This document shows positions 21,734 through 40,876 of a stretch of DNA of 55,140 nucleotides, piece after piece (the stretch's first letter is position 1; each line of letters starts with the position of its first letter). The DNA is from Solirubrobacterales bacterium (GTDB lineage Bacteria > Actinomycetota > Thermoleophilia > Solirubrobacterales > Thermoleophilaceae), in the NCBI GenBank assembly GCA_012718975.1, contig JAAYBF010000036.1:1-55140 (forward strand), given 5' to 3'. The position numbers and the translations under genes were made by a program. The notes under the pieces were generated by a model. That model made no database searches. It was not told where the DNA came from and worked only from the letters and a program-made list of their open reading frames with translations.

Positions 21734-21735
21734 CC

Positions 21736-23194: not shown

Positions 23195-25779
23195 CTTCGG
23201 CCGAGCGTCGTGATGCGCTGCCGCTGGTTGCCCTCGCCGCCGGGGCGGTCGCGGTCGTCGCCGTGCGGTGGGCTCCCGGTGTGCTCGATGTGGTGGCGGC
23301 TGGTCCGGTGCGGCCGGTGGCCGTCTCCCTCGCCGTCGCTACGGTGATCCTCGCCTGTCTGCTGGTCGGCGGCCGGCTGGTAGCCGTCCGCCGCGGTCTG
23401 GGTGACCGGGTCCGGGTCGCGGTGGTCCCCGCGCCGAGCTTCGATCCGTCCGAGGAGGCGGTCGTCAGGTTCGCCTCCGGCCTCAGCCGTTCCCGGCGGG
23501 CGGTCCGCGGGCTGCTCGACGCCCCGGCGAGCGCGGTCCGGGTCGAGCTCGCGACGACCGCCGACGGCGACCTCGCCTACGTCCTCGAGCTGCCCCGCCG
23601 CGCGCGCGGAGCGCTCGCCGCCGCGGCCGCCGCCTACAGCGACATCCAGCTGCGCGACCTCTCCGACGAGCTGCCGTCGCCTGTCGAGGGGGTGGGGGTG
23701 GCGCGGGCGGAGCTGGTCTTGGCTGGGCCGAGCTCGAGCCCGTTGCGGGCGGTGGGGATCGACCCCGACCCGCTCGCTGGCATCGCCGCCGCCGTCGGGG
23801 CGCTGCGCTGCGATGACGGCGAGACCGCGACCGTCTGCGTCGACCTGCTCGCCGTCACCCCGGGCCAGCGCCGCCGTCTCCAACGCCGCCTCCTACGCAA
23901 CGCCCCCAAGACTCGACCGGACGCAGCGGGCCAGCTTGGCGAGCTGGTCGACCTGCCCAAGTCGGGTCCGGCGTCGGCGGGGGAGCTGGTCCAGCGCCGT
24001 GTCGATCGCCAGGCGCTCGCCGCCAAGCTCGCGACCCCGCAGCCGCTGTTCTGGATCCAGCTGCTCGTCAAGACCACCTCGCCGACACCCGGACAGGCGA
24101 AGGAGGCTCTCGCCGGCCTGCTCGCCGCCTTCGATGTCTTCGCCGGCGACAACCACCTCCGCGTCCGCGGGCTGCGGATCCCGGGGCTGGCGTTCCTTGG
24201 CTCCGACCTGCCTGGGCTGCGGCGCCGGTTCGACCGCCGGCTCGCGTCCGGGCTGTTCTCCCCGCCGCGGCGCAGGGTCGTCTCGGCCGGCGAGATCGCC
24301 GGGCTGCTCAAGCCACCCACCACTCACTGTCCGGCCGGCAACGTCGTGCGGTCGATCGGAACGATCCCGCCACCACCGGGCCGGCTCCCGACCTTCAGAG
24401 GTCAGCGCAGCCTTCTGCCGCTCGGGCGGGTCGAGACCGACCGCGGCGACCGGCTGGTCGGCGTGCCGTTGGCCGACACCTTCTTCTCCTACATGGCCGG
24501 CCGGTCGCGGTGGGGCAAGACCGAGACCGCGATCGGCCAGTTCCTTCACCTCGCCAAGGCCGGGCATGGCTGCTTCTTCCTCGACCCCCACGAGGACGCG
24601 ATCCGAAAGATCAAAGCCCACCTCACCGACCCCGACATCCGCGACCGGGTCGTCGAGATCAACCTCGCCAACACCGACCGCCAGACCGCCTGGAACCTCT
24701 TCGCCCCACCCGCCGACGACGCTCAGGCCCAACGCCAGGTCGACGCCGTCGTCGACGCGTTCGCCTCGACGCTGCGCTGGGATGAGACCAACAACCGGGC
24801 GCTGAACCTCACCACCCAGGCAGCCCAAGCACTCGTCGCGCTTGCCCGCCAGCTCCCGCCGTCGCTGGCACCGACGGTCTTTCAGATCCCGACGCTGCTG
24901 TCGGATCCGCAGTGGCGGGCGGCAGCGCTGCCGTTGATGTCCACGCCGACACGCCAGTTCTTCACTGACCGCTTTCCCCGGCTCTCGGAGGAGGCGATCA
25001 CCCCGGTCACCAACCTCATCGACCGCCTCCGCGCCGCCCCCAACGTCGCCGCGCTGCTCGGCGCCCCGACCGCCAGCTACGACATCCGCACCGCGATGGA
25101 CGCCGGCCACATCGTCCTGGCCTGCCCCGGGTCGGGATCGACCCGCGACCGGCTCGTCGCGAACTTCCTCGTCTACGACCTCCTCCACGCCGCCAAGACC
25201 AGAGCCGCCCTCGACCCGGAGCGGCGGCGGCCGTTCTACGCCTTCCTCGACGAGGTCCAAACCTACGACGGCGCGTCCTCGGGCAACCTCGCCGCGCTGC
25301 TGGAGCAGACCGCCAAGTACGGGCTGCGGGCGCTGCTGTTTAACCAGAACCCTGAGCGGCTCACCCCGGCGACGCTCAACGCCGTCACCACCAACCGCTC
25401 CCACCTGCTCACCACAGCACTCAACGCCAAGGCCGCCGGCCTGATCGCCCGCGAGTGGGGCAAGACGGTCGCGCCGGAGGTGATCGCCAGCCTCGAGCGC
25501 TACACCACCATCGGGTCGGTCACCCTCGCCGGCGAGATCACCCCACCGTTCCTCATCCACGGCGTCCCGGTAGAGGAGCTCCACCCCGACACCGACGGCC
25601 CCGACCGGATCGACGCGCTCGACGACGCCATCGCCGCACGGACGGCGACCCGGCCGGTCGGCGAGACCGTCGCAGCGGTCGACGGCCACGACCAACGCAT
25701 CCTCGACCACCTCCACCAACACCGGCCCGGCCAAACCGCGGTGGCGACCCGCCAGGCGATCCCGACGAGGCGCCCATGA
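23191..25779 (+). CDS. Type IV coupling protein (VirD4/TraG-like ATPase), 862 aa
   Basis: This is the ATPase that links processed DNA to the secretion channel. Two N-terminal hydrophobic segments (about 8-35 and 44-66) anchor it. Walker A is 'GRSRWGKTE' (437-445) and Walker B 'FYAFLDEVQTYD' (Asp687-Glu688), with 'LLFNQNPERLTPATLNAVTTNRSHL' following. 'LDPHEDAIRKIKAHL' and 'NLANTDRQTAWNLF' are typical of the DUF87/TraG-type group in actinobacterial elements. The 340 residues before Walker A form a less conserved domain. GTG 23191 overlaps the preceding small frame; the end overlaps the replication-relaxation gene (ATGA). Confidence 0.87.
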   Translation: MTSAERRDALPLVALAAGAVAVVAVRWAPGVLDVVAAGPVRPVAVSLAVATVILACLLVGGRLVAVRRGLGDRVRVAVVPAPSFDPSEEAVVRFASGLSRSRRAVRGLLDAPASAVRVELATTADGDLAYVLELPRRARGALAAAAAAYSDIQLRDLSDELPSPVEGVGVARAELVLAGPSSSPLRAVGIDPDPLAGIAAAVGALRCDDGETATVCVDLLAVTPGQRRRLQRRLLRNAPKTRPDAAGQLGELVDLPKSGPASAGELVQRRVDRQALAAKLATPQPLFWIQLLVKTTSPTPGQAKEALAGLLAAFDVFAGDNHLRVRGLRIPGLAFLGSDLPGLRRRFDRRLASGLFSPPRRRVVSAGEIAGLLKPPTTHCPAGNVVRSIGTIPPPPGRLPTFRGQRSLLPLGRVETDRGDRLVGVPLADTFFSYMAGRSRWGKTETAIGQFLHLAKAGHGCFFLDPHEDAIRKIKAHLTDPDIRDRVVEINLANTDRQTAWNLFAPPADDAQAQRQVDAVVDAFASTLRWDETNNRALNLTTQAAQALVALARQLPPSLAPTVFQIPTLLSDPQWRAAALPLMSTPTRQFFTDRFPRLSEEAITPVTNLIDRLRAAPNVAALLGAPTASYDIRTAMDAGHIVLACPGSGSTRDRLVANFLVYDLLHAAKTRAALDPERRRPFYAFLDEVQTYDGASSGNLAALLEQTAKYGLRALLFNQNPERLTPATLNAVTTNRSHLLTTALNAKAAGLIAREWGKTVAPEVIASLERYTTIGSVTLAGEITPPFLIHGVPVEELHPDTDGPDRIDALDDAIAARTATRPVGETVAAVDGHDQRILDHLHQHRPGQTAVATRQAIPTRRP

Positions 25780-26699
25780 CCACCAGGTCACACCCAGTCC
25801 CGCGGTTTGGCAAGACCGCGGTCGCGATCCTCGAGAGCCTCTACCAGCACCGGCTGCTGTCCACCCGACAGATCCACCGCCTCCACGCACCCGCCACACG
25901 GATCCAGGGCAGCCAACGCACTCTCGCCCGCCTCCGCCAAGCCCAGCTCACAGACGCCGTCCAGCTACCCGGCCGGATGCGGCTTTGGTACCTCACCGAC
26001 CGCGGCCTCGACGCTGTCGAGGCGATCCCCAACCGCGTCGAGACCCGCCGCAAGCAAATCCCCCGCGACCACGCCGCCGGCCCCCTCCAACAACACACCC
26101 TCGCCGTCAACGACGTCGGGATCGCGTTCGTCGAGGCAGCCCGTACCCGTGGTGATGACTGCGGGCCGCTGGCGTGGCGGCACGAGATCGCCCACCCAAT
26201 CGGCCGGCCCTCAGGCCGGCGGCGCAGCGAGCAGCTGATCGCCGACGCCGTCCTCACCTACCAGCTCAACCAGCCCGCCGAGACGAGCTTTCACTACCGC
26301 TTCGTCGAGCTCGACCGCGCCAACCGCGCCACCAACGACCTCGCCCGCCGCCTCGCCCGCTACGCCCACCTCTACCACCACACCGTCACCCCAGACCAGG
26401 CCTCGGTGCCGGTGGCGGGGTGGACGCTGCTCTACCCGATCTTCCCCGGGCTGCTGGTCGTGCTCGCGGGCGAGGCCCGTCACCGCCTCGAGCGTCGCCG
26501 CCAAACGGTGCTCGACCTCTGCCGCCAAGACCCCGACCTCGCCGCCACCCCACAGGTGCGGCTGTCGATCTGCCTCCTCGACGACCTCACCACCCACGGC
26601 CCGTTCGCACCGATCTGCCGCACCCCCGACGACCTCGACCAGCCCGTCGACTGGCTCAACAACCCCAACCCCCTGGCAGACAGCGGGGGCGCGTCGTGA
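25776..26699 (+). CDS. Replication-relaxation family protein, 307 aa
   Basis: Residues about 14-85 form a winged helix ('AVAILESLYQHRLLSTRQIHRLH', 'SQRTLARLRQAQLTDAV', 'RLWYLTDRGLDAVEA'). The rest has an alpha/beta core ('LIADAVLTYQL...HYRFVELDRANRATNDLARRLARYAHLY'), the typical Replic_Relax layout. In the sequence the acidic 'IADAVLTY ... FVELDR' resembles a nuclease-like core, and members are thought to act in replication or mobilisation of actinobacterial and Gram-positive elements. As no classical MOB relaxase is found in the window, this is the best candidate for the DNA-processing partner of the coupling protein. ATG 25776 overlaps the coupling-protein stop; the end overlaps the methyltransferase start. 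Confidence 0.82.
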   Translation: MTTRSHPVPRFGKTAVAILESLYQHRLLSTRQIHRLHAPATRIQGSQRTLARLRQAQLTDAVQLPGRMRLWYLTDRGLDAVEAIPNRVETRRKQIPRDHAAGPLQQHTLAVNDVGIAFVEAARTRGDDCGPLAWRHEIAHPIGRPSGRRRSEQLIADAVLTYQLNQPAETSFHYRFVELDRANRATNDLARRLARYAHLYHHTVTPDQASVPVAGWTLLYPIFPGLLVVLAGEARHRLERRRQTVLDLCRQDPDLAATPQVRLSICLLDDLTTHGPFAPICRTPDDLDQPVDWLNNPNPLADSGGAS

Positions 26700-27763
26700 C
26701 GGCGTCGAGCAAGAAGGCGATCGAGCTGCCAACACCCGGGGGGAGGGGGAGGGGGTGGAAGGTGATCGCCGGCGACTCGCTCGCCCAACTCCCCAGGATC
26801 GGCGACCAGACCGTCGACGCGGTCGTGACCGACCCGCCGTATGGCATCGACTTCCAAGGCGCCGACTGGGACGGCCGCGTAATCCGCAACGCCGCCCAAC
26901 ACGCCAGCGGCGAGCGCTTGTCGGCGGGGGAGGCCTTCCAGCAGTGGACAGGCCTCTGGGCTGGCGAGTGTCTGCGGATCCTCAAGCCCGGCGGTCACCT
27001 CCTCGCGTTCGGGGCGCCGCGGACCGTCCACCGCCTCGCCGCCGGCGTTGAGGACGCCGGCTTCGAGTTGCGCGACACGCTGATGTGGCTCTACGGAACT
27101 GGCATGCCGAAGTCCCGCCGCCTACCGGGCGGCCAAGGCACCCAGCTCAAACCGGCGTATGAGCCGATCATCCTCGCCCGCCGGCCACCCGACGGAGCGG
27201 TCGGCCGCAACATCGCCCGCCACGGCACCGGAGCGCTCAACGTCGACGCCTGCCGCGTCAACGACCGCTACCCAGCCCACCTCGTCCTCACCCACACACC
27301 GCTCTGCGACGAGGACTCCTGCCATCCCAGCTGTCCGGTCCCGCTGATCGACGACTCCGCCCACGCGCGCGGCACCCGGGCGGCGCAGCGGATGAGCCGG
27401 CTCTTCTACTGCCCCAAGGCCAGCCGCGCCGAGCGCAACGCCGGCTGCGACCACCTACCCGCCAGACCGCTCGACCTCTTCCCCAACGCCCACCCCACCA
27501 ACCGACAGCCCGCCAGCGCCGCCAACGACCACCCGACCGTCAAGCCACTCGACCTCATGCGTTGGCTCGTGCGTCTGGCCACCCCACCCGGCGGGATGGT
27601 GCTCGACCCGTTCTGCGGATCGGGCTCCACCGGCGCCGCCGCGGTACTCGAGCAGCGCCGGTTCGCCGGCATCGAGCGCGACCCCAACTACCAACGCATC
27701 GCCCGCGCCCGCATCGCCCACTGGGCCACCAACGAGGCCGGAGAGCGGGATGGGCACCCTTGA
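26696..27763 (+). CDS. DNA (adenine-N6 or cytosine-N4) methyltransferase, beta class, 355 aa
   Basis: 'DPPYG' (motif IV, 46-50) comes before 'DPFCGSGST' (motif I, 304-312). That order marks the beta class of amino-methyltransferases. 'HPTVKPLDLMRWLVRLATPPGG' is the usual lead-in to motif I, and the target-recognition region lies between (about 110-260, with a Cys-rich 'CDEDSCHPSCPVP'). The GTG at 26696 overlaps the previous stop (GTGA). It belongs to the transfer operon and has no nuclease partner next to it, so an orphan enzyme that protects the element from restriction on entry is more likely than a restriction-modification pair. The target sequence cannot be read from the protein. Confidence 0.88.
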   Translation: MTASSKKAIELPTPGGRGRGWKVIAGDSLAQLPRIGDQTVDAVVTDPPYGIDFQGADWDGRVIRNAAQHASGERLSAGEAFQQWTGLWAGECLRILKPGGHLLAFGAPRTVHRLAAGVEDAGFELRDTLMWLYGTGMPKSRRLPGGQGTQLKPAYEPIILARRPPDGAVGRNIARHGTGALNVDACRVNDRYPAHLVLTHTPLCDEDSCHPSCPVPLIDDSAHARGTRAAQRMSRLFYCPKASRAERNAGCDHLPARPLDLFPNAHPTNRQPASAANDHPTVKPLDLMRWLVRLATPPGGMVLDPFCGSGSTGAAAVLEQRRFAGIERDPNYQRIARARIAHWATNEAGERDGHP

Positions 27764-28121
27764 CCGCGACGACATCGAGCGGATCGCCCGCCGCGTCGCC
27801 GAGCTCGTAGCCGCCCGGCCACCCGCCGCGGCCCGCTACGTCGACGCCGCCGAAGTCGCGCGCGTCCTCGGCGTCGAGCGCGACTGGGTCTACGCCCACG
27901 CCCGCCAGCTCGGCGCCGTACGCCTCGGCGGCCCCCAAGGCCGGCTGCGGTTCGACCTCCAACAGATCACCCGCGACCTCGCCAACACCACCAACCCGCC
28001 GCCAACGAGGCGGGCCGGCCGGCGGTCGGCGGGGACTGGAGACCTCCGCGCAGCAGAGCTAACGTCGCCGAGCCGCCACGCCAACCGGCACGACCCACCA
28101 GGCGGCCCACATCGACGATGA
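27750..28121 (+). CDS. Excisionase-like helix-turn-helix protein, 123 aa
   Basis: 'YVDAAEVARVLGVERDWVYAHARQLGAVRLGGPQGRLRFDLQQITRDL' (about 30-77) is the small winged helix of MerR/Xis-type excisionase proteins. The C-terminal 45 residues are basic and disordered. The ATG at 27750 lies inside the methyltransferase gene (14-bp overlap), and the integrase gene follows after 39 bp. The order excisionase then integrase at the end of a conjugative operon is common. It probably steers the integrase toward excision. Confidence 0.8.
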   Translation: MGTLDRDDIERIARRVAELVAARPPAAARYVDAAEVARVLGVERDWVYAHARQLGAVRLGGPQGRLRFDLQQITRDLANTTNPPPTRRAGRRSAGTGDLRAAELTSPSRHANRHDPPGGPHRR

Positions 28122-28160
28122 CCACCGACCACACCCCCCAACGGCAAAGGATCTGAAGCC

Positions 28161-29672
28161 GTGGGACGGGCAGCCACCGGAACGATCCTCACCATCACCC
28201 TCGCCGACGGCACGATCCAGTTCCGGCTCCGGTTCCGCGCCGACGGCGACCGCCACGACCTCTACCTCCACGAGCGCCGCGACTGCGACTGCGGCTGCGG
28301 AGGCGGATGGAACGAGCGCACCGCCCGCGTCGAGCTCGACAACATCCTCGCCCGCGTCAAAGCCGGCATCTGGACCAGACCATCACCGCGACGCAAGCCT
28401 GCCGTCCAGGAGCCCGAGCCAGGTCCGCCGCTGTTTCGCGACTACGCCGCCGACTGGCTGCAGGCAAAGCGCGAAGGGATCCTCGGCGACAAGCCGCTCA
28501 GCCAAGCCACCTACAACGACTACCGCTCCCGCCTGCACGTCCACCTCCAGCCCTACTTCGGCGACTACCGCCTCGACGAGATCGACCGCGACACCTGCCT
28601 CGCCTTCAAGGCCCACAAGATCCGCGAGGCCCAAGAGCTACGCGACGCCATCGCAGCTGGCGCCGTCATCCGCGACCACCGCGGCCGCCGCCGCGACCCC
28701 ACCGGACCAGCGATGCTCAAGAAGCTCATCACCGCCCTGACCTCGATCCTCGACGAGGCAGTCGAGGACGGCCACATCACCACCAACCCCGCCCGCAGCC
28801 GCCGCATGCGCGTCCACGTCCCCAAACCCAAACGGACCTTCCTCGAGATCGACGAGCTCGCCGCACTCGAGGACGCCGCCGCAAGCCAAGAGCGCGACCC
28901 CACCCGGTCCACTCCCGACGACGGCTCGACCCAGGCCAAGGTCGCCAAGCTCCACCAGGACGGCAAGCGCCCCACAGACATCGCCGCCCAGCTCGGTCTC
29001 GCGAAATCGACGGTCAGCTACCACCTCGACCAACTCGGCATCCAACCCCAGCCCTACATCGGCCGCAAGGCGCTCGTCACGACCCTCGGACGGTCCGGCG
29101 TCCGCATCAGCGAGCTGTGCGACCTACGCATCGGCCACATCCGCCTCCACAACGCCAGCGGCGCCCGCTTCCACATCACCGACTCCAAGACCGAGACCGG
29201 CATCCGCCACATCGAGATCACCCCAGACCTCACCGAGACCCTCATCATCCACATCGACCACCTCCGCCGAACTGGCAAACCCACCGCACCAGACGCCTGG
29301 GCCTTCCCCAACACCCGCGGCGGACGCCTATCCCGCCAACGCGCCGCCAAGATCCTCACCGACGCCGCCAAGGCCGCAACCCGTCGCGTGCACGCTCGCG
29401 GCAACCCACCGCTCCCTCACGTCACGCCCCACACCCTCCGCCGCACCTACATCTCCATCGCCCTACTCGCCAACAACTTCGACGTCCTCTGGGTCATGAA
29501 CCAAGTCGGCCACGCCGACTCCAAGATGACCCTCGACGTCTACGCCAAACTCCAACAACGCGTCAAACGCCAACATGGTGCCGCCTTCGACGACCTAGTC
29601 CGGGAAGCTGGGGCTTCGCGAACCACGGGTGGCATCAGCTCAAGCGCAGACAGCCGACGCCCGCCGGAGTGA
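28161..29672 (+). CDS. Tyrosine integrase with an inserted helix-turn-helix, 503 aa
   Basis: The integrase chain runs: N-terminal arm-binding region with an odd Cys cluster (DCDCGCG, 40-46), SAM-like core-binding domain (about 88-215), then the catalytic domain. Catalytic residues are visible: Arg315 ('GVRISELCDL'), the Lys-bearing 'DSKTETG' (343), His424-x-x-Arg427 ('HTLRRTY'), His451 ('QVGHADS') and Tyr461 ('LDVYAKL'). Between the first catalytic helix and the Arg box, about residues 255-297 form an extra helix-turn-helix ('STQAKVAKLHQDGKRPTDIAAQL' then 'KSTVSYHLDQLGI'), like that of resolvases or recombinase tails. It would integrate and excise the element. The GTG start at 28161 is used; a longer leader is not supported. 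Confidence 0.9.
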   Translation: MGRAATGTILTITLADGTIQFRLRFRADGDRHDLYLHERRDCDCGCGGGWNERTARVELDNILARVKAGIWTRPSPRRKPAVQEPEPGPPLFRDYAADWLQAKREGILGDKPLSQATYNDYRSRLHVHLQPYFGDYRLDEIDRDTCLAFKAHKIREAQELRDAIAAGAVIRDHRGRRRDPTGPAMLKKLITALTSILDEAVEDGHITTNPARSRRMRVHVPKPKRTFLEIDELAALEDAAASQERDPTRSTPDDGSTQAKVAKLHQDGKRPTDIAAQLGLAKSTVSYHLDQLGIQPQPYIGRKALVTTLGRSGVRISELCDLRIGHIRLHNASGARFHITDSKTETGIRHIEITPDLTETLIIHIDHLRRTGKPTAPDAWAFPNTRGGRLSRQRAAKILTDAAKAATRRVHARGNPPLPHVTPHTLRRTYISIALLANNFDVLWVMNQVGHADSKMTLDVYAKLQQRVKRQHGAAFDDLVREAGASRTTGGISSSADSRRPPE

Positions 29673-29775: not shown

Positions 29776-31449
29776 TCAGGCACTGAGCATTGGTTCCAGA
29801 CCGTCCGGTGCCTTACTGCGCTTGGCCTTGAAGTCGTAAGCCACGCTGCGCGCCGTGAGACCAGCTGCGAGCGCGTCCGCAAGGGTGTCGTCGGTCTTCG
29901 CTGCTAACGAGTGACCAACTGCTGCTGCCACCAATCCTGCGAACGCGGGCAGTACAATCTCGAGTGCCGGTCCACGGACCTCGGCTCGATGCACAGCGAA
30001 GTTCCGGATCAGGTAGGCGCGATCGCATACTGAGACGAGGCGGTTAACGAGTCGATCGAAGTCGTTGCGTAGTCCCGATCCACCGTCCCAGGCCGTGATG
30101 AGCTTGAAGCGGGCCCAGCCGATAGCGTCTCCGGCATCCGCGAGGGCCTTGTCGAGTCCGGGAGCGTCAGAAGTGAGCTGGCTCACGATCCACTCGACCT
30201 CGCCTCCCTCGGGTGCTGCTCCTAACCCCGCGGCCTCAGCGCGTCCGGCGAGCCATAGGTGGACGTCGCGTGCGTAGACGAACTGCCCGAGGCCAGCCAT
30301 AACATCGCCGGCGTGCCAGCCTGGGTCATCGGCCACTCCGCCATATAGTGCATCGGCTGCGGTCCACAGGTCGACGAACGCGGTCTGCGGTGGTGCCGTC
30401 CGAGCTTGGGCAAGCTGGTCGAGCGCGTCGTTGAGTCGTCCGCTCGGATCGTCCTCGCCGGGACGCCATTGCTCTACGCCAGGGGGGCGCACCTCCAGCG
30501 GCTCGCTCGGAAGCTCCAAGACATGGGTCTTCGTCGTGTGAGTGTCATAGACGACTGCGACAGTTGGATCGGCCACCTTCCGTCCCATCAGCCGCCATGC
30601 GCCTACGGCACTGCGTAGCTGCTTGTCGACGATTCGAACAGCGGCGTCGGGGTCGGCCGCCTCGACATTCGGGAAGTGCGAGACGGCCTGGGCCGCCGAC
30701 ACGGTCTTCAGCACCTCGTCAGCGTTTTCGGGAGCCCACTCCCGGATGATCTCAATTGCCGGTTGCACCTGGATGCCTCGCAGGCGGGCTGTGTTGGACT
30801 CCTCCGACAAGTCGGTGAGAGGGGTCAGGACGACGAACTCACGGACGCGACCGTGATGATGAGCATCCAGCGTGTCGAGGATGGCATTCGCGAGCGAACC
30901 ATCTTTCGCGTAACGCACCTCCACTTCGGCGAGGACCGCCTCCCGCCAGCTACGGGAGTGCCGATTGTAGACCAGCTCTGCGTCAAGTTGACACACCAGG
31001 TCGTCGAGGCGACGGAAGTCCACCTGGCTGTGCCCAGCAGAGTCAACGACTGCCGCCAGATGCGCGACTAGGCCTTGTACGTACTCTGGCTGATCGAGGT
31101 GGTCGAGAAATGCCTTAAGGAGGCCAGGCCCGAGTGCCCCGGGCACGAAGCCCTTCGTCGAGGTGTGCTTGAGCTTGCTGGCATACCCAGCGATCTCTGG
31201 GTACCGCTTCGCTAGGTAGGGATCCTCGCTTTCAAGCAGCGCCTTCACCTCGTTAAGGAGCTTCTCGACGACTCCGTTGACACGCACGGCGCCATCGCGG
31301 TTCGCCTCGGAAAGGTCGCGCAACTCGGCGAGTCGGAGCCGCACACCCACCTCGGTCGCACGGGTCCACCACGGCCCGGCGCCGCCGCAGAGCTCCCTCC
31401 AGCGCTGGAGTACAAACAGGGCCGCGTGTTGCTCGGGGGGAGAGCTCAA
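29776..31449 (-). CDS. HEPN-domain protein coupled to a GHKL ATPase, 557 aa
   Basis: The C-terminal region contains 'YLIRNFAVHRAEV' (RNFAVH, 482-487), which fits the Rx4-6H motif of HEPN ribonuclease domains, with flanking helices ('FDRLVNRLVSVCDRAYLI' and 'LPAFAGLVAAAVGH') as in Apea-like HEPN. The first 400 residues are alpha-rich and unassigned. The start is TTG 31449, which overlaps the TGA of the upstream ATPase gene (TTGA), so both are made together. HEPN domains act as RNases in toxin-antitoxin, abortive-infection and CRISPR effectors. An ATPase-gated RNA-cleaving effector is therefore a reasonable reading, but it is inference. The gene ends about 100 bp from the integrase stop, in convergent orientation. 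Confidence 0.68.
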   Translation of the reverse strand: MSSPPEQHAALFVLQRWRELCGGAGPWWTRATEVGVRLRLAELRDLSEANRDGAVRVNGVVEKLLNEVKALLESEDPYLAKRYPEIAGYASKLKHTSTKGFVPGALGPGLLKAFLDHLDQPEYVQGLVAHLAAVVDSAGHSQVDFRRLDDLVCQLDAELVYNRHSRSWREAVLAEVEVRYAKDGSLANAILDTLDAHHHGRVREFVVLTPLTDLSEESNTARLRGIQVQPAIEIIREWAPENADEVLKTVSAAQAVSHFPNVEAADPDAAVRIVDKQLRSAVGAWRLMGRKVADPTVAVVYDTHTTKTHVLELPSEPLEVRPPGVEQWRPGEDDPSGRLNDALDQLAQARTAPPQTAFVDLWTAADALYGGVADDPGWHAGDVMAGLGQFVYARDVHLWLAGRAEAAGLGAAPEGGEVEWIVSQLTSDAPGLDKALADAGDAIGWARFKLITAWDGGSGLRNDFDRLVNRLVSVCDRAYLIRNFAVHRAEVRGPALEIVLPAFAGLVAAAVGHSLAAKTDDTLADALAAGLTARSVAYDFKAKRSKAPDGLEPMLSA

Positions 31450-33227
31450 ACGCTTTCTCCCACCAACGTTCGCAATGAGATCACTGGCAGTTCTTCAAGG
31501 CCGCCGGCGCCATGGAGCTGGAGCATGTGGGTGGCGCCGTGAGGATCCCGGTCGTCGATCTTCTCCACCTCGACTGCTCTCCTACCGAGGCGTTTCGCGT
31601 CGGCGTCCCACACCACGGCGAGGTCGGCGCTGGCCGCTGATCCGTCGTCGCGCTCCAAGTCGCGCATGATTTCGCCGAGATGGGTGCCGAAGAGCACGTG
31701 CATTGCGTCGTTGCTTCCTCCCTCAACGGGTAGGACGATCGAGTCGCTGGTATCCGGGAAGAGCCCGGTCTGGACTGTTCGCAACGGAGGCAAGTAGCCA
31801 TTCCCGCGACCGAGCAGCTCATGGAAGAGTGCAAGCACGCCTAGCTGCTCCCGAGGATGTTTGAGGTAGGGAACGTGGCTGTCGAGGTCGGGGCGGTCCA
31901 ATGCCCGATCTACTAACGCACGGAAGACGGCGTCGTCGGCGGGTTGGGCGAGAGGTTGTAGGTGCGGGACAACGCTGACTAGCCTTGCCTTCCATGCGTT
32001 CTTGACGACCGACTTCAGCTTCGCTTTCTGTCGCCCCGCCAGGGTCTTGCGTCCTAGGTCAAGCTTGAGTTCATCGTCCTGGAGTAACGCGAACATCCGT
32101 CGCTCATAGGTGCGGGGCTGGATGACGTCTGGTCGGAACTCGACGCCTGTCGGCATCCCTAGTGTGGCTACGTAGTAGCCTTGCCACTCGTTAGGGAAGA
32201 ATTTCCCCTTCTGGCGGCGCGCGTCTCTGATCTTTGCCATGTCGCGGCCATCGATCGCGAAGAAGTAGACCTTCACGTCGCGGCCGCTATCCGACTTGAC
32301 GACATCGACATAGCGGACCGCTGCTCCTCGGACGCGGCGCGCGCGCTCGTCCGCTCCCAGATCCTCGATGTCCTCGATCTTCACTACACGCTTGGCCGGT
32401 ATCAGCTCCTCTGGCGTCGCGTACGCGTATTTAACTTTGATCGGGCTCTTCGTCTTCTCGCCCTGCTCATCCGTGTAGTCGAGCGTCACCTGAATGTTCG
32501 TCGTTGGTGGTAGTGCCGTGCCGAACTTCTCTCCGAAGAGGGGTCCCGTATTGCCTATGGCTGTCTGGGTGCGCAGCATCCATATGAGCTCTTCGCACTC
32601 GAGATCGAAGAGGTCGACGTCGAAGTAGTCGAAATCGATGTCTCCGACTGTTACGACCGTGTACGTCGGTGAGCCGTGAAGCCGGTCAGGCTTATTGGCT
32701 ACCGCTTTGCCAATGGGCTTGTCGGTCTGGCCCCCGCCGTGCACCCAGCGCTCGCCTCCCTTGACCACTACGTCGTAGCGGCCCGTTCCGTCGCAGGTCC
32801 GGATGCGCAGATCGTTAGACGCGAGAGCGAGGAAGCTCAACCCGACCCCCTTATGTCCACGGGATCGGCTTGTCGCTGCGCGCTGCTGTGGCCCCGCCTT
32901 GCGCGTGACGTTCGGAGTCAAGACCATTTGTAGGTCGGCGTGCGACATGCCCGTTCCGGTGTCGAGGACGCTGAACGTACGCGCATTCCGGTCGAACCGG
33001 ATGTGGATACGCGCAACGACCGCGGCGTCCTCGCCTGCTAGAAGGCGCCGGGCGTCGACGGCGTCCGCCGCGTTCTGGAGTGCCTCGGCGAGGAAGTCCG
33101 AAGCCTTCGAGTAGCTTGAGACGACGTTCTCTGCCTCACGGAGTTGCTGCGCTAAGGCATCGACCTCTTCTGGGGGACGGGTACTGAGGAAGTCGATGTC
33201 CCACCGCTCAGCCCCCTCTCTCGGCAT
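31446..33227 (-). CDS. GHKL (Hsp90-like/sacsin-type) ATPase, 593 aa
   Basis: The Bergerat-fold ATP-binding motifs are plain: N-box 'FLAEALQNAADA' (Glu48, Asn52), G1 'DTGTGM' (89-94) and G2 'GHKGVGLSFLAL' (124-135). The rest (about 200-593) has no recognised domain; parts are beta-rich and acidic. It is not a histidine kinase, since there is no H-box or receiver, and it is not MutL or gyrase, since it lacks their transducer sequences. ATPases of this fold sense or remodel partners and are common in defence systems. It is coupled by a TTGA overlap to the HEPN gene: the same pair of domains occurs within single chains in sacsin-like proteins. ATG 33227 is used. The upstream 123-bp gap is shared with the AIPR gene. 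Confidence 0.78.
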   Translation of the reverse strand: MPREGAERWDIDFLSTRPPEEVDALAQQLREAENVVSSYSKASDFLAEALQNAADAVDARRLLAGEDAAVVARIHIRFDRNARTFSVLDTGTGMSHADLQMVLTPNVTRKAGPQQRAATSRSRGHKGVGLSFLALASNDLRIRTCDGTGRYDVVVKGGERWVHGGGQTDKPIGKAVANKPDRLHGSPTYTVVTVGDIDFDYFDVDLFDLECEELIWMLRTQTAIGNTGPLFGEKFGTALPPTTNIQVTLDYTDEQGEKTKSPIKVKYAYATPEELIPAKRVVKIEDIEDLGADERARRVRGAAVRYVDVVKSDSGRDVKVYFFAIDGRDMAKIRDARRQKGKFFPNEWQGYYVATLGMPTGVEFRPDVIQPRTYERRMFALLQDDELKLDLGRKTLAGRQKAKLKSVVKNAWKARLVSVVPHLQPLAQPADDAVFRALVDRALDRPDLDSHVPYLKHPREQLGVLALFHELLGRGNGYLPPLRTVQTGLFPDTSDSIVLPVEGGSNDAMHVLFGTHLGEIMRDLERDDGSAASADLAVVWDADAKRLGRRAVEVEKIDDRDPHGATHMLQLHGAGGLEELPVISLRTLVGESV

Positions 33228-33254
33228 GCGGGGATCCTACTATCGCACCGCATC

Positions 33255-33264
33255 CGATGCATCG
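33255..33264. promoter_or_regulatory. 10-bp palindrome CGATGCATCG in divergent promoter region
   Basis: It lies in the 123-bp gap between the divergent GHKL and AIPR genes, 28 bp from the first and 86 bp from the second start. The identical 10-mer occurs at 8620-8629 in the leader of the 131-aa gene. An operator is possible; recurrence by chance is also possible for a 10-mer in 55 kb. Confidence 0.3.
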
Positions 33265-33350
33265 AATACTGTCGCCCGTGAACGCTGCGGACGCGGCGCT
33301 TCGCAGATCTTTGCGGCTGACGGAGTCAGCACGCACGGCAAAGGAGAGCA

Positions 33351-34556
33351 ATGAGCGCTGAGGTACGGCAGGCGACGATTGTCGCGCAGTACGCCCGAAG
33401 GATCCCAGATCCCACGCTTCGTGACGTGGAAAGGCATGTGATGTTCGTTAGAGCGCTTGACATGCCCGCGGGTCTGCCCAAGGATCCGAACCCTCGCGAG
33501 CAGAAGACAAACCGCATCGTCTATCGAGAGGTTGGCAAGCACCTGCTCAACGAGGAGGGGACGAGCAACACGTTTCATCTCAAGAACAAGGGCATCACCC
33601 TGATCGCTGATAGCGTGCGCCGTAGCAGCGAGGACGAGCAGGCCTACGAAGTCAGCTTCAGCGAAGGTCAGGGGATCGTTGATGGCGGCCATACTTACGA
33701 GATTCTGCTTCAGAGCCGGCAGGCGATCGAAGACCGAAGCGATGTCGACGAGACGGATGCGATTGAACAGTTCGTCAAGGTCGAGATAATTACTGGCCTG
33801 CCAAGGGACCTCGTTCCCGAGATCGCCGGGGGGCTGAACACCGCCGTCCAGGTTCAGGCCATGAGTCTCGCTGACCTTCGCGACGAGTTCGAATGGATCA
33901 AGGACGAGCTCGCGGATGAGCCGTACGCGGAGCGGATCTCCTTCCGCGAGAACGAGGATCGCTTGTATGACGCCCGCGACATAGTGGTGTTGCTAGACCT
34001 GTTCAACATCTGGGAGTTCCCGAACCATGGCCGTGAGTATCCGCTGCGTGCGTTCAGCTCCAAGGCTGCTGTTCTCAAGGCCTACCTGGACGACCAGCGG
34101 CACAATGGTGGCGACACGTACCGCAAGCTGCAGCCGATCCTTAGGGAGATCCTGGAATTGCGGGATACGATTTCCTTTGAGGCGCGTGAGCTACATAACA
34201 AGGGCGGCGGTAGCGCAGGCAAGCTCGCGTATGTAGAGGGCCGGTCTCGCGGGACGTTCTGTTTCCCCTTCATCGGTGAGGAGGGGCAGTACCGTCTCCG
34301 GCTAGGGGCGCTCTTCCCGATGCTAGGATCGTTCCGCTGGATGGTGGAGGAGGGGTCCGACGGGAACGCGCAATGGGTAGGAGGATTCGGCAATGTCCTC
34401 GCGCTGTGGAGGGAGCTGGGCGTGGAGCTGATGAAGGCGACCCAGGGCACCAGTGAAGAGCTCGGGCGCAACCCGAACGCCATCGGCAAGTCTCGAAACC
34501 ACTGGGCGAACCTTCACTCGACGATCGCTAAACACCAGCTAATCGGCGCTCGCTGA
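33351..34556 (+). CDS. AIPR-family (abortive infection phage resistance) protein, 401 aa
   Basis: 'FHLKNKGITLIADSVR' (76-90) and 'GQGIVDGGHTYEILLQSR' (107-124), then 'VKVEIITGLPRDLVPEIAGGLNTAVQV', are the conserved blocks of AIPR proteins, which are found in phage-abortive and restriction-like loci. DGGHT (111-115) is placed like the DGQHR signature of DndB, pointing to a shared fold. Shine-Dalgarno AAAGGAG precedes ATG 33351. It is transcribed away from the GHKL-HEPN pair and towards dndA, ending at a shared hairpin. It may be a DNA-binding or nuclease-regulating part of a defence module with those genes. The activity is unknown. Confidence 0.78.
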   Translation: MSAEVRQATIVAQYARRIPDPTLRDVERHVMFVRALDMPAGLPKDPNPREQKTNRIVYREVGKHLLNEEGTSNTFHLKNKGITLIADSVRRSSEDEQAYEVSFSEGQGIVDGGHTYEILLQSRQAIEDRSDVDETDAIEQFVKVEIITGLPRDLVPEIAGGLNTAVQVQAMSLADLRDEFEWIKDELADEPYAERISFRENEDRLYDARDIVVLLDLFNIWEFPNHGREYPLRAFSSKAAVLKAYLDDQRHNGGDTYRKLQPILREILELRDTISFEARELHNKGGGSAGKLAYVEGRSRGTFCFPFIGEEGQYRLRLGALFPMLGSFRWMVEEGSDGNAQWVGGFGNVLALWRELGVELMKATQGTSEELGRNPNAIGKSRNHWANLHSTIAKHQLIGAR

Positions 34557-34564
34557 TCAAGGCG

Positions 34565-34594
34565 AGGCGGGGCGCTTTGCGCGCCACCCCGCCT
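34565..34594. terminator. Bidirectional hairpin between AIPR gene and dndA
   Basis: AGGCGGGG (34565-34572) pairs with CCCCGCCT (34587-34594), and inside it CGC pairs with GCG across a 5-nt loop with a small bulge. It starts 9 bp after the AIPR stop and reaches the dndA stop, so it can serve both convergent transcripts. No T tract is visible. Confidence 0.55.
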
Positions 34595-35741
34595 ATGCCG
34601 CCGCAGCGATCCGGTGCAAGTCGACGGTCGCCGCTGCGAGGGAGCTGAGGGCGGCGTCGATCGCGGCTTCGGTGGTAAAGCGTCCGAAGCTCAACCGGAC
34701 GCACTCATTGGCGTCCTTGGGGCTTATGCCCTGGGCGAGCAGGACGTGTGACGGCTCCACCTTCGTCGTGGCGCAGGCCGATCCGCTCGAGAACGCGACA
34801 GTTTCGCGCGTTGCGTGCATCAGGGCGCGCGCGCCGATGCCGGGAATGCGCACGCTGAGTGTCTGGGGTAGCGATCGCTCGACTGGTGCGTTGGGCCGCA
34901 CGTCCACGACGTTCGACAGGCCCGCGGACAAGCGGCGTTTAAGCTCGACCTCCCGCTTCGCGTCGGCACTACGCTCGCGCCTGGCCAGCTCGGCCGCGAC
35001 GCCGAGTCCGACGATGCCCGGGACATTGGCGGTGCCCGGCCGCAGGTTGTGCTCCTGGCCACCGCCATGAAACAGTGGCGCGATTTTCATCCGCTTTCCT
35101 CGCTTGCGCACGTAGAGCGCTCCAACCCCCTTCGGGCCGTACACCTTGTGGGCGGACAGCGCTAACAGGGAGATGCACGCCTGGTCCACGTCCAGGGCCA
35201 GGTGACGGGTGCCCTGCACGGCGTCACAGTGGAACGACACCTCGGCCTCAGCACAGATCTGGCCGATCTCGGTGACCGGTTGGATTGCGCCGGTCTCGTT
35301 GTTCGCGGCCATCACGCTTACCAGGGCGGTCTTGGGGGTGAGCAGGCGGCGCACCTCGTCCGGTTCGACGATCCCGTCTGCTGAGACGGGGACACGCGTA
35401 ACGCGTGCCCCAAACAGGCCTGCCGGCCCGAGCACGGCAGGGTGCTCGATCGCACTCACTAAGATCTGAGCGTCCTCGCGCGTTCGCGCGACGGCGCCAA
35501 GGATCGCGAGGTTGTTGGCCTCAGTTGCTCCGCTCGTAAAGACGATCTCGCTGGGCGCGGCACCGATCAGCGCCGCGACCTGCTCTCGGGCGTTCTCGAC
35601 CGCCTGCTGGGACTCATGTCCGTAGTAGTGATCGATGCTGGCCGCGTTGCCGACAGCGGTCGTGAGGTAGGGGAGCATGGCCTCAAGCACGCGCGGATCG
35701 ACCGGCGTCGTCGCGTTGTAGTCGAGGTAGACGGGCTTCAC
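34593..35741 (-). CDS. dndA: Cysteine desulfurase DndA (IscS-like), 382 aa
   Basis: This PLP enzyme takes sulfur from cysteine for DNA phosphorothioation. The N-terminus 'VYLDYNATTPVDPRVLEAMLPYL' is typical. The PLP lysine is Lys199 ('LSAHKVYGPKG'), His100 ('EHPAV') stacks on PLP, and the persulfide-bearing Cys323 lies in 'FSSGSACATTK'. Start GTG 35741 overlaps the dndE stop (GTGA); an open extension to 35828 has no conserved sequence. In this cluster it is the last gene (order BCDE-A), whereas many dnd clusters carry dndA divergently or use a chromosomal iscS. The linkage and overlap make a dedicated DndA most likely. Confidence 0.88.
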   Translation of the reverse strand: MKPVYLDYNATTPVDPRVLEAMLPYLTTAVGNAASIDHYYGHESQQAVENAREQVAALIGAAPSEIVFTSGATEANNLAILGAVARTREDAQILVSAIEHPAVLGPAGLFGARVTRVPVSADGIVEPDEVRRLLTPKTALVSVMAANNETGAIQPVTEIGQICAEAEVSFHCDAVQGTRHLALDVDQACISLLALSAHKVYGPKGVGALYVRKRGKRMKIAPLFHGGGQEHNLRPGTANVPGIVGLGVAAELARRERSADAKREVELKRRLSAGLSNVVDVRPNAPVERSLPQTLSVRIPGIGARALMHATRETVAFSSGSACATTKVEPSHVLLAQGISPKDANECVRLSFGRFTTEAAIDAALSSLAAATVDLHRIAAAA

Positions 35742-36100
35742 CAGGCGACCAGATCCGTGATGTCGGCGAGGGTGCGAACCCTGCGCTGTAGCAATGCTAG
35801 CCCGCGGTTGATGTGCGCCCGAAACCAAGCTGCCTCATCTTTCGCGTTCGCGGGCTCCTCTAGCGCTATCCACTCGCGGAGGTAGGCGATGAAAAGTCGG
35901 TCCCACTCGCCGGTGAGGGTGTAGCGGTTGAACTCGACGCCTCGCTCGTCGTAGGACTTGGGATCGGGATGTCCTGGCTCGGTCAGGGACAGGCAGAAGC
36001 CCAGCCGGCACAAGTACTGGTGGGTGAGGCCAGTGCGGGCCTTCATCGTCTTCAGTACCTGGGTTGAGCTTTCGTCGAGCTGGATCTTCTTAGCGAGCAT
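35738..36100 (-). CDS. dndE: DNA sulfur-modification protein DndE, 120 aa
   Basis: 'THQYLCRLGFCLSLTEPG' and 'YDERGVEFNRYTLTGEWDRLFIAYL' are the conserved blocks of DndE, a small helical protein that binds nicked DNA and belongs to the DndCDE complex. Length is normal for the family. ATG 36100 overlaps the end of dndD by 11 bp, and the stop overlaps the dndA start by 4 bp, so it is translated within the same operon. Basic residues in the first helix ('MLAKKIQLDESSTQVLKTMKAR') fit a DNA-binding surface. Confidence 0.9.
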   Translation of the reverse strand: MLAKKIQLDESSTQVLKTMKARTGLTHQYLCRLGFCLSLTEPGHPDPKSYDERGVEFNRYTLTGEWDRLFIAYLREWIALEEPANAKDEAAWFRAHINRGLALLQRRVRTLADITDLVAW

Positions 36101-38069
36101 CGGACTGGACCTCCTCGGCGGAACTGAAGTAGCCCTGCTCGATCCGGGTGGCCGCTGTCTCGAGGTCGTGGGTAAGGGAGATCCGTCGCGCTGTGACGTC
36201 GTCGAGCTGCGCGGCGGCAGCGACGTCGACCTCGGTATCGGTCGACAGCACGACCACCTGATGGCTCACGTGGGGGAGGTACTCGGTGAGCAGCCGACGG
36301 CGATGCTCTGCGTCGAGGCGAGCGAGTGGCGTATCGACCACAACCGGTAGGGGCCGTCGTGATGCCTGGGAGAGCGCCCACAGGATCGCGATCGCGAGCA
36401 GCTGCTTCTCGCCGGCGGACAGGCGCTCCTTCGGCAGCTCCGTTCCGTCCCAGCGGATGACCCTGATCCGGAAGCTCTCCCGATCGATGACGATACCGCT
36501 GAGCATCTCGCCTTTACGCGAGAGGCGGTTGAAGTAGCGAGCGGCGTCGAGCTCGATCTGTTGCAGCCGTTGCTGCTCTGACCGTCGGCCGTACTCCTTG
36601 AGTAGCTCGATGGTGCGCAGAGCCAGTCTGGCTGACTTGACTCCCTTGGTGACCTTCTCGTCGGCGTCCTCGGCGCGTTGAAGCTCGCGTGCGGCGACCT
36701 TCAGCTCGTGCTCGGCTTGGCGGTGCTCATCATCGACGCGGTTCATGTCGGCCTGGAGAGTCCCGAGGAGTCGCTCCGCCTCTTGTAGATCGGAGATCAC
36801 CGGTGCGAGCGCCTCGTCGTCGGGAACCTGAGCCAGCTTGCGCTCGGCCCGGTCAACCTGATCCTGGGCGGCGCGTAGCCGCTTACCCAGACGAGCCGCG
36901 TCCGCGCGAACTGCGTCTCGGACGAGGTGCAGCTGATCGAGCATGACCGCGCGCTCGGCTGCAGTCACGTCGTGCAAGCGGGCTGGCGCGGCCTTCGAGC
37001 GCACGCCAAACGTCTCGCGAAGAGTTTCCAGAACAGAGTCGTCGGTCTTGCTCTGGAGCCTGCGGCGCAACTTCGGTGCCGCGGCCTTGAGCCGACGCGC
37101 GATGATCTCGTTCTCCTCTGCGGCTTGCTCGACATCGAGCCGTTGCTCCACGCTATCGGCGATTCGCTGGGCAATCGCAAAAGGCAACAACCCCGTCACC
37201 AGCCCACGGAGTTCCTCGCCCGCTGCAGCCGTCTCAGCGGCCGCCTTGCGTGCGGCGGCCTCCGTCGCGGCGCGCTCCGCCGCGAGGGCGCCTCCCTCGC
37301 GCGCGAGACGATCACGGATCCGAGCGATTCGCGCTTGAATCTGATCTTCGCGTGACTGAAGGTTGGCGCGCCGGTCGAGAACCTCCGCCAGCTTCGCCTG
37401 GGCCGCGTCGTGCGCGGCCCCTGCTTGAGCGAGACGCTCCTGAAGGGCACGACGTTTGCCCTTTGCGGTGCCGCCAGCGAAGCGTTTCAGGTCCGCTTGG
37501 AGCTGGCCTATGAGGTCGAGGCCCAGTAGGCGCTTGACGGCATCCGCAAGCAGCTCGCCGTTCTCATCGTCTGCCAACGCTTGAATCTTCTCGCCGTCGA
37601 AAAGGAAGAAGCCCGCCAGGCCAGGCGGCAATAGCGAGTCCAAGAAGTCTTGCCGAGAGGTATCGCTGAAGTCGTCGACATCCTCGCCGTCCACGGCGAT
37701 GGTCAGGCGCTCCTGGAGGCGCCCCTTATTGGTGCGCCGCCAGCGTCTAGTCACGACGTACTCGGACTCGCGCGCGCTGTGGACGTGCGTAAAGGACAAA
37801 CTGACCGAGCATGCCTTCGCCGGCTCGCCATTGGGGCGAACGTGGAAGCGCGAACCAATATGGCCGTCGTAGCGCTCCCGGGAGACGCGATGTCCCAAGG
37901 CCCGGCGTCCGTGCAGACACAACGTGAATGCCTCAAGCAGCGTCGTCTTGCCAGCGCCGTTGGTTCCCCCGACGAGCACGATTGGACGTCCCGGCTCGGT
38001 GCGCAGGTCGAGGCGCTGGCGGCCCGCGTAGAGGCCGAAGTCCTCGAGCTCGAGCGACTCGAAGATCAC
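36090..38069 (-). CDS. dndD: DNA sulfur-modification ATPase DndD (SMC/Rad50-like), 659 aa
   Basis: Walker A 'GGTNGAGKTTLLEA' (34-47) starts an ABC-type head. A long central coiled coil follows (about 200-530, rich in Ala/Glu/Arg heptads: 'RRALQERLAQAGAAHDAAQAKLAEV', 'AQDQVDRAERKLAQV'), then the signature 'LSAGEKQLLAIAILWAL' and Walker B 'PVVVDTPLARLD' with its D-loop. This SMC/Rad50 form is DndD, thought to open or hold DNA for sulfur insertion. GTG 38069 overlaps the dndC stop (GTGA); the frame is open to 38123. No zinc-hook CxxC is seen at the coil apex, in line with DndD. Confidence 0.92.
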   Translation of the reverse strand: MIFESLELEDFGLYAGRQRLDLRTEPGRPIVLVGGTNGAGKTTLLEAFTLCLHGRRALGHRVSRERYDGHIGSRFHVRPNGEPAKACSVSLSFTHVHSARESEYVVTRRWRRTNKGRLQERLTIAVDGEDVDDFSDTSRQDFLDSLLPPGLAGFFLFDGEKIQALADDENGELLADAVKRLLGLDLIGQLQADLKRFAGGTAKGKRRALQERLAQAGAAHDAAQAKLAEVLDRRANLQSREDQIQARIARIRDRLAREGGALAAERAATEAAARKAAAETAAAGEELRGLVTGLLPFAIAQRIADSVEQRLDVEQAAEENEIIARRLKAAAPKLRRRLQSKTDDSVLETLRETFGVRSKAAPARLHDVTAAERAVMLDQLHLVRDAVRADAARLGKRLRAAQDQVDRAERKLAQVPDDEALAPVISDLQEAERLLGTLQADMNRVDDEHRQAEHELKVAARELQRAEDADEKVTKGVKSARLALRTIELLKEYGRRSEQQRLQQIELDAARYFNRLSRKGEMLSGIVIDRESFRIRVIRWDGTELPKERLSAGEKQLLAIAILWALSQASRRPLPVVVDTPLARLDAEHRRRLLTEYLPHVSHQVVVLSTDTEVDVAAAAQLDDVTARRISLTHDLETAATRIEQGYFSSAEEVQSDAR

Positions 38070-39484
38070 GCCCGCGCCTCCTCGCGAGCGATCTCCGCGG
38101 CAATGTCGGCCTCGCTGCGCCACTCCTGAGAGAAAGCTGCTTCGATGCGATCCATGATCTGCGATCGGCGCTGAAGTCCTTGCAGCTCCCGCTCGGTATC
38201 GATCAACTGCTTGACCAAGCCAAGTGGTACCTCGTGCTCGAGGGCAAGCTCGCCAAGCAGGGCCTCGTCATCTGCATCCAAGCTCGGCTGGTCGTCTTCG
38301 GGTAGATGGAGCTCTAACCCGGTCTCCTCGCGATATAGCTCGGGGAGCGTGTCGTGCCAATCATGGCGCTCGTAGCGCCAGATCCGGCGGATCTCGCGGA
38401 GCTCCTCCGCACTGATCAGCTCCACCATTTGATCTGCTGGTGCCAGCTCGCGCGTGCGCTGCTCCGCGCGTAGCAGCTCGCGCAGGATCTCCTGGCAGAA
38501 CTCGAGCTTGTAGGGGCCACGGACGAACGGGTCGTCGGTGTCGCCGTAGTCCTTGATCATCGTCGCTCCGTTGCGACGGACGTGTTGTCGAACCTCGGCC
38601 TTGCGCTTGGGGTCCTGGGTGTCGGCTAGCAGGTCGCGGAGGTCGAGTAGGGGCTCGAGCCACTCGTCGCCGTTGTCGACCATTGCCTCCATCGCCTTGT
38701 CCTTCGTCACGACGGTGCAGACCCAGCAGCCAAACCGGGAGCTGCCGCATGAGGGGGTCGAGGTGTCGACAACCAGAGGGCACTCGCCCGAGGCTGAGTT
38801 GCGATACAGGGCCAGCAGATCATTGTTGTCGCGCCCCCACGGATTAGGGACTTGCAGCAGGTAGGCCCACACATCGTCGACCGAGTAGTCCCGAATCGGC
38901 GTGTAGACGAAGGCGTTTGGCAGCGTGCTGTGGCGCGATAGCAGTGAGTCCTTGATTGCTCGAAGGCTCATTACCTGGGCGCGGGTGGCGCTCTCCTGTC
39001 GTCTCACGCCAAGCAGCAAGACGACCTCTCCGTGCTCGGCGACTCGTTCGAGGATGAAGCGGTTTGCTGGGCTGATCTTCATGCGTGCCGTGCACCAGCG
39101 AAAACGCGATGACGGGGCGGGGTAGCCCTTGCCGATCAGGTTGACCCAGAAGGACTCCTCCAGGCTCGGCACGACCTTGTGCGCTGAGATGGGGAGACCC
39201 TCTTGCTGGGCATGGCTGTTGATGAGGTCCAGCGCCTCGGAGAGGAAGTCGATGATCACCGGTGTCTCGACCTTGGTATCGCCGGAGATCACATATACGT
39301 GCTTGCGCCGCTCGCTTGGCTTCAGTCCGCGCAGGGCGTACCAGACGAGCTGAAGCGCCACCGTCGAGTCCTTGCCGCCGCTGAAGCCGAGCACCCATGG
39401 CCGATCGTCGGTCAGGTAGACCTGACGGATCTCCTCGAGGGTCGTTTCATAGAGAGTCTTGCGGTCAGTCTCAGGCTGCGACAT
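38066..39484 (-). CDS. dndC: DNA sulfur-modification protein DndC (PAPS-reductase-like), 472 aa
   Basis: The PP-loop 'SGGKDS' (35-40) with 'VYVISGDTKVETP' marks an ATP-pyrophosphatase of the PAPS-reductase group. Cys246, Cys253 and Cys256 in 'CGSSRFGCWVC', with Cys235 nearby, can hold the iron-sulfur cluster known in DndC. 'FRWCTARMK' is also conserved. DndC activates the DNA backbone and receives sulfur from DndA. ATG 39484 overlaps the end of dndB by 14 bp, and the stop overlaps dndD by 4 bp. Length is at the usual value, and all key residues are present, so modification should be functional. Confidence 0.93.
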   Translation of the reverse strand: MSQPETDRKTLYETTLEEIRQVYLTDDRPWVLGFSGGKDSTVALQLVWYALRGLKPSERRKHVYVISGDTKVETPVIIDFLSEALDLINSHAQQEGLPISAHKVVPSLEESFWVNLIGKGYPAPSSRFRWCTARMKISPANRFILERVAEHGEVVLLLGVRRQESATRAQVMSLRAIKDSLLSRHSTLPNAFVYTPIRDYSVDDVWAYLLQVPNPWGRDNNDLLALYRNSASGECPLVVDTSTPSCGSSRFGCWVCTVVTKDKAMEAMVDNGDEWLEPLLDLRDLLADTQDPKRKAEVRQHVRRNGATMIKDYGDTDDPFVRGPYKLEFCQEILRELLRAEQRTRELAPADQMVELISAEELREIRRIWRYERHDWHDTLPELYREETGLELHLPEDDQPSLDADDEALLGELALEHEVPLGLVKQLIDTERELQGLQRRSQIMDRIEAAFSQEWRSEADIAAEIAREEARA

Positions 39485-40592: not shown

Positions 40593-40876
40593 GGAAGTGT
40601 CTCGTGCTCGGGGCAAGGTAGGCGTGAAGCCGGACGGACGCCTGGTCAAGGCGGCGCGACCATAGCTCTGCGCCGCCCGACAAGCGAGCGGCTCCCGCCG
40701 CGAGCCCGACACTTCCTCAGGGCTCTGCGCTCCCAACTCTGCCCCCCCAACCTCGGAACGCGAGGCGATTAGGACTCCGAATAGGACGTGGCGGCCCACA
40801 ACACGGCCATCTGGCGCACCAAACAAGCGCCCTGAACTGGCCTAGAAAGTGCCCCATTTGCAGGCCTTCCCCCCGA
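40593..40876. other. Intergenic region between dnd operon and tRNA-Phe; likely dnd promoter and island end
   Basis: This stretch of 284 bp has no convincing gene (the open frame upstream of dndB has no conserved content). It holds the dnd promoter and the junction of the island with the 3' end of tRNA-Phe. No strong hairpin or long repeat was seen. Confidence 0.4.

Follow-up and report, generated by a model that had tools for sequence, protein, structure and literature searches.

The phosphorothioate (PT) modification operon dndBCDEA described here appears to come with its own downstream two-gene effector, a HEPN RNase that would be controlled by a paraMORC3-like, nuclease-dead GHKL ATPase. 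Judging from sequence, we give this reading a probability of roughly 0.55. The window, meaning the whole stretch of DNA analyzed, is 55,140 nucleotides long. From 29776 to 40592 all its genes are intact in frame (ORF check), and the order of transcription is dndB-C-D-E-A, GHKL, HEPN-like, all on the minus strand, with an AIPR gene inverted (plus strand) between dndA and GHKL. Among 84,980 genomes, the closest homologues of the GHKL protein are found at two loci, L038 in an Actinomycetota MAG (47% identity) and L039 in a Gaiellaceae MAG (49%), and both have dndB-C-D-E-A-GHKL-HEPN in a single direction. The modification genes of the window are as follows.

39471 to 40592, minus strand: dndB (PF14072, 3.9e-119; TIGR03233 above cut-off); listed as an ORF to 40826, with an ATG at 40592 as the likely start.
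38066 to 39484, minus strand: dndC (TIGR03183, 6.1e-168); 68-72% identity to L038 and L039.
36090 to 38066, minus strand: dndD (TIGR03185, 1.8e-143, above cut-off); listed as an ORF to 38123, its start likely being near 38066.
35738 to 36100, minus strand: dndE (PF08870, 1.5e-20; TIGR03184 above cut-off).
34593 to 35753, minus strand: dndA-type cysteine desulfurase (PADLOC SspA 4.9e-138, DndA 2.5e-135).

The PT modification set is thus complete, with dndB, C, D, and E each matching their own family models and all five genes, the desulfurase included, intact and matched (Pfam, PADLOC, NCBIfam). In PADLOC the desulfurase scores highest against SspA, with DndA a close second, and it is the final gene of the operon, as it is in L016 to L019, L038, and L039. 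An earlier note, made from the letters of this DNA, had described a complete dndBCDEA with no dndFGH, and so it is: a DptH protein query, which matched its control plasmid fully, found no relatives of DndH anywhere in the genomes of the window, L038, or L039. The same note placed its three candidate genes facing the dnd operon, which is true of AIPR alone; GHKL and HEPN are co-directional with dndBCDEA and downstream of it. Because the AIPR gene and a 123-base gap precede GHKL, the locus is not strictly one operon. As a separate observation, PF20306 (Sp-DndD) has a match in the C-terminus of DndC (38066-39484), and PbeB a weak one, which makes it look as though DndC here includes a small Dnd-associated protein.

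The gene at the center of our reading is the GHKL ATPase, with the following features.

31446 to 33227, minus strand: GHKL ATPase with a C-terminal PD-(D/E)xK-like domain, 593 aa (PF13589, E 2.8e-7).
31743 to 31745, minus strand: D495, the retained D of the nuclease site (GHKL alignment).
31686 to 31694, minus strand: LFG, residues 512-514, at the position of the homologues' E[F/H/Y/I]K; degenerate nuclease site (GHKL alignment).

Two traits define the comparison with paraMORC3. One is a GHKL ATPase domain whose ATP-site motifs are intact, and the window protein has it: the columns E48, N52, D55, D89, G91, G93, G127, and G129 are invariant across 36 homologues, and the AlphaFold2 model (pLDDT 83) gives structure matches of the HSP90 type. 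The other is a restriction-endonuclease-fold domain with a catalytic D-ExK. In the C-terminus of the homologues there is a D and then an ExK, and the AlphaFold2 model of this region runs helix, three strands (with the D on strand two and the ExK position on strand three), helix, strand, which in our own reading of the model is a PD-(D/E)xK-like topology. The window protein keeps the domain and the D, but not the ExK, and L038 and L039 show a similar loss. The ExK is kept in all 42 other readable homologues (41 of them distinct), so that its loss coincides exactly with the three GHKL proteins that are dnd-linked and HEPN-paired (3/3). With the ATP-site residues invariant and the ExK lost, the ATPase is probably active and the DNase probably inactive. 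The earlier note does not mention this dead nuclease domain.

Immediately downstream is the presumed partner.

29776 to 31449, minus strand: intact ORF for a HEPN-like protein of 557 aa, a predicted effector RNase; L038 and L039 have homologues, likewise downstream of GHKL.
29989 to 30006, minus strand: RNFAVH (residues 482-487), predicted to be the HEPN active site; its R, N, V, and H do not vary among three divergent homologues.
31446 to 31449, minus strand: TTGA, where the GHKL stop and the HEPN start overlap by 4 bases (translational coupling).

The TTGA-coupled pair of the earlier note is therefore real, and a stop-start overlap is found at two of the three loci (ATGA in L038; L039 has a gap instead). 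What supports calling this protein a HEPN? Near the C-terminus of the three proteins, which share 30-35% identity overall (34% for L038 and 30% for L039 relative to the window), the motif reads RNFAVH, RNTVVH, and RNVAVH, that is, RN[FTV][AV]VH, and the R-x4-6-H motif of the HEPN superfamily is present in all three. When a profile of the C-terminus is compared with solved structures, the best matches are two ApeA antiphage HEPN proteins; they are weak (E 0.047 and 0.43), and they align with the HEPN-like protein at YLxRNxxVHxA. The structure model built from the three sequences is poor, with helices flanking the motif at pLDDT <50, and Foldseek gave no match for it. Thus the HEPN identity proposed in the earlier note from RNFAVH gains from the invariance of the motif in two relatives, but no family library (Pfam, PADLOC, NCBIfam) matches the protein, and we describe it as a predicted HEPN, by motif and weak matches.

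The HEPN-like protein and the loss of the nuclease site go together, since at 29 GHKL loci with an intact nuclease site the HEPN profile matches none of 121 neighboring ORFs. Beyond the window, no HEPN relatives were found in plasmids, in 396 genomes of the phylum, or in viral contigs. Those same phylum genomes hold one distant GHKL match besides the window, and the plasmid search gave few and distant GHKL relatives. Scanning genome and viral collections with the single GHKL protein gave no match, its patterns lying in poorly conserved stretches; the scan of 84,980 species genomes used a four-row GHKL alignment and led to 37 confirmed loci. Wherever the GHKL-HEPN pair was located it stood beside dndBCDEA (3/3 loci); the earlier note had suggested looking for co-occurrence of all three of its families with dnd.

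It is possible to imagine that such a pair is an independent abortive-infection or toxin-antitoxin unit, sensing some signal other than PT and merely traveling with dnd in a defense island. Defense genes do cluster, L038 holds further defense genes nearby, the element in the window also carries AIPR, integrase, and relaxase genes, and a paper on Dnd neighborhoods (PMC10853773) proposes HEPN genes at the boundaries of Dnd loci as backup suicide effectors. Against this, the order and direction of the genes after dndA are the same in three genomes, and no pair has been found without dnd. The window, L038, and L039 form one clade with support 100/100 both in the GHKL tree (43 rows) and in the DndC tree (11 rows), and the inner order is also the same, the window grouping with L039. 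Given this agreement between the two trees, the modification genes and the pair have been inherited together. Chance adjacency to dnd in the two further loci is, as a rough estimate, very unlikely, because a true dndB occurs in only about 2 of 61 related genomes (the window's own included), and falling within 20 kb of it in a 3 Mb genome has a probability below 1%. A class-wide search of 329 genomes returned the same three loci plus one fragment (L038 and L039 recur there as G501 and G555, recognized by their coordinates), which puts all GHKL-HEPN-dnd loci (n=3) within one class, and the three may represent a single ancestral, inherited event. Weighing these points, we consider an independent unit unlikely, though it is the alternative to be taken most seriously.

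The surroundings of the locus have the look of a mobile element.

21736 to 23019: transglycosylase-like gene.
25455 to 26699: replication-relaxation protein.
26174 to 27763: N6/N4 DNA methylase.
27750 to 28121: HTH_17 protein.
28161 to 29672: tyrosine integrase.
40875 to 40950: tRNA-Phe.

Together, the mobile-element genes at 18132-29672 and the tRNA-Phe suggest an integrative element with defense genes at one end. The tRNA-Phe 3′ end (40875-40950), considered as an attachment site, has no second copy within the window. In a search for the empty integration site in genomes of the same genus, little aligned past the tRNA. Elsewhere, L038 and L039 both have a second GHKL ATPase to the left of dndB, with 60% identity over the main match; we rejected it as a part of the module, since it is missing from the genome of the window. 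Also to the left of dndB, the L038 genome encodes a GmrSD (DUF262 + DUF1524) protein of the DndI/SspE architecture (regions L082:17242-19056 and L038:1-1806 hold it and the second GHKL), and there are more defense genes nearby.

The inverted gene between dndA and GHKL requires its own discussion.

33351 to 34556, plus strand: AIPR family protein, 401 aa; accessory (PF10592, E 7.9e-18).
33681 to 33695, plus strand: AIPR residues 111-115, the DGGHT motif; five AIPR homologues all read DGGHTY.

The earlier note was right in recognizing an AIPR protein with a DGGHT block (PF10592 scores 65.6 bits against a cut-off of 25). It went on to propose that AIPR, GHKL, and HEPN jointly replace DndFGH, with AIPR as a working subunit. 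The part of this proposal that is supported is a dnd-linked effector module without DndFGH, given the GHKL-HEPN pair and the clade shared by its GHKL and DndC; the part that is not supported is the trio as a unit. In its favor, AIPR occupies the slot between dndA and GHKL, where AIPR and GHKL have a 123-base divergent promoter region in common, and AIPR and paraMORC genes are both known from restriction-modification (R-M) operons (PMC2292703). But neither L038 nor L039 has an AIPR anywhere in its genome, none of the 396 genomes of the phylum has an AIPR homologue beyond the window, and the AIPR relatives found in plasmids, at about 30% identity, occur without dnd or GHKL, no dnd genes being listed in the four plasmid contexts inspected. 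We therefore find a joint replacement by all three genes improbable, and AIPR, missing from both relatives and found elsewhere without dnd, is better described as accessory, an occasional extra gene and not a core part. The slot itself is variable, as the three loci differ there, and AIPR is one occupant: it measures about ten bases in L039, holds two small genes in L038 (one encoding a HIT protein), and holds AIPR in the window. On each of the Bacillota plasmids (L006, L007, L008, L009), a small helix-turn-helix gene lies upstream of the AIPR gene in divergent orientation, and in L009 the AIPR gene is followed by a Z1-domain gene.

The earlier note also suggested a common fold for the AIPR DGGHT and the DndB DGQHR blocks. 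A comparison of the two profiles, both shallow, gives no signal (hhalign probability 0.1%). Such a common fold would not be new in any case, as the N-terminus of DndB has already been assigned to the AIPR family (Makarova 2012, PMC3506569).

Less probable still is a role for GHKL and HEPN as helpers or regulators of PT modification, the HEPN binding nucleic acid without cutting: the pair is co-directional with the modification genes and some HEPN domains are non-catalytic (PMC3710099), yet the full R-N-x3-H motif, a catalytic signature, is kept in all three proteins, and dndBCDEA is found elsewhere with other partners.

This brings us back to GHKL-HEPN as, probably, the effector (the "weapon") of the PT marking system. 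How could it work? Driven by ATP, the GHKL dimer would clamp DNA and use its middle and C-terminal domains to read the PT status. PT-marked self DNA would hold the GHKL-HEPN complex off, while unmarked phage DNA, or the loss of marking, would alter the clamp so that the HEPN protein is released or activated. The activated HEPN protein would then cut RNA and halt phage growth, most likely via dormancy or death of the host. As for the direction of control, PT could inhibit the pair or PT could be needed, and the sequence is compatible with either. The ancestral GHKL protein would have cut DNA itself, an output lost here and handed to the HEPN partner. Dnd operons in other genomes end differently. 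In the closest ones outside the clade, other effectors lie downstream of dndA, Pbe in L016 and L019, and a helicase/PT-restriction set in L017 and L018. A related genome, of the same order (L022, G440), shows yet another effector set: its dnd locus includes a PT-restriction helicase relative plus a second DndD-like gene on the opposite strand.

The GHKL family appears to accompany three kinds of DNA modification, the third seen at one contig end. Other homologues adjoin genes for C5-methyltransferases and Vsr endonucleases, from which we take it that the family works with DNA modification, in agreement with the published paraMORC theme (PMC2292703). A Haloquadratum MAG (L048:256-5829) has dndC-D-E divergent from a GHKL gene with an intact EFK, and the contig ends soon after. 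At another contig end (L084:11121-14802), a GHKL fragment adjoins a DndB/DpdB-like gene, a TGT-like DpdA candidate, and genes of the queuosine pathway; this may be a cluster for 7-deazaguanine modification of DNA that has a GHKL partner of its own.

Each ingredient of the locus has precedents; what look new are the coupling of PT, GHKL, and HEPN, and the exchange of a nuclease for a HEPN. A literature search of limited scope found no paper coupling PT to a GHKL effector. Tentatively, and at somewhat less than even odds, we propose that in a PT-linked lineage a paraMORC3-type DNA-restriction ATPase lost its DNase and became rewired to an RNase partner, such that the sulfur status of the DNA backbone licenses RNA cleavage. 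A DNA mark coupled to RNA damage is unusual, and it would give PT systems an arm that targets RNA, is probably abortive, and is tied directly to the mark. If the rewiring is true, GHKL ATPases would be general modification readers with exchangeable outputs, across 5-methylcytosine, phosphorothioate, and 7-deazaguanine systems. This exact exchange of a DNase active site for a HEPN partner, made within one clade, offers a natural experiment in how a modification reader can be uncoupled from its output. And in Dnd operons without DndFGH, which are common according to PMC10853773, GHKL-HEPN is a small, concrete candidate for the enforcer of the PT mark, with precise residues to mutate.

Several known systems resemble this locus in part. 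DndCDEA-PbeABCD, a PT-dependent system that stops viral replication without cleaving DNA (PMC6459918), likewise has the desulfurase gene last, an effector module downstream, and no DndFGH. The difference is that the Pbe set (PLD-helicase, CxC small protein, ABC ATPase, PbeD) is missing here, with GHKL and HEPN in its place: PADLOC finds no separate Pbe gene in the window module, and PbeA, whose control was fully matched, has in the genome of the window a 24% helicase match only (E 3.9e-7, on another contig). IscS-DndBCDE-DndI and SspABCD-SspE (PMC11662687) also join a PT operon to a stand-alone NTPase effector, which in those systems is PT-controlled; DndI and SspE are DUF262-HNH DNA nickases, and Pfam finds no such DUF262 + DUF1524 protein in the window module. 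DndFGH and DndI harm cells that lack PT, whereas PbeABCD and SspE do not (PMC11662687, PMC6459918). HEPN and PIN RNases at the boundaries of Dnd loci have been proposed as likely (backup) suicide effectors in PMC10853773, whose main text mentions none of GHKL, MutL, HATPase, or AIPR as a partner; here, by comparison, the HEPN gene lies downstream of dndA and is tied to a GHKL switch.

For the GHKL protein, the relevant comparisons are paraMORC3 (PMC2292703) and VcSduA of Shedu type I-D, a GHKL-DUF4263 protein once named paraMORC3 that restricts phage alone (PMC12137116). They share with it an N-terminal GHKL, a middle domain, a C-terminal PD-(D/E)xK-type domain, and a linkage to R-M or phage defense. 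Here, however, the ExK is lost, there is a HEPN partner gene, the modification is PT and not methylation, and none of 36 GHKL family members matches DUF4263 or SduA. Finally, a Ymh-HEPN fused to a paraMORC GHKL has been described in R-M loci (PMC3710099). Our case differs in its separate genes, in its PT modification, and in having no Ymh (PF09509) among the Pfam matches, but the arrangement is the same in kind, a GHKL ATPase coupled to a predicted HEPN RNase beside a DNA modification system.
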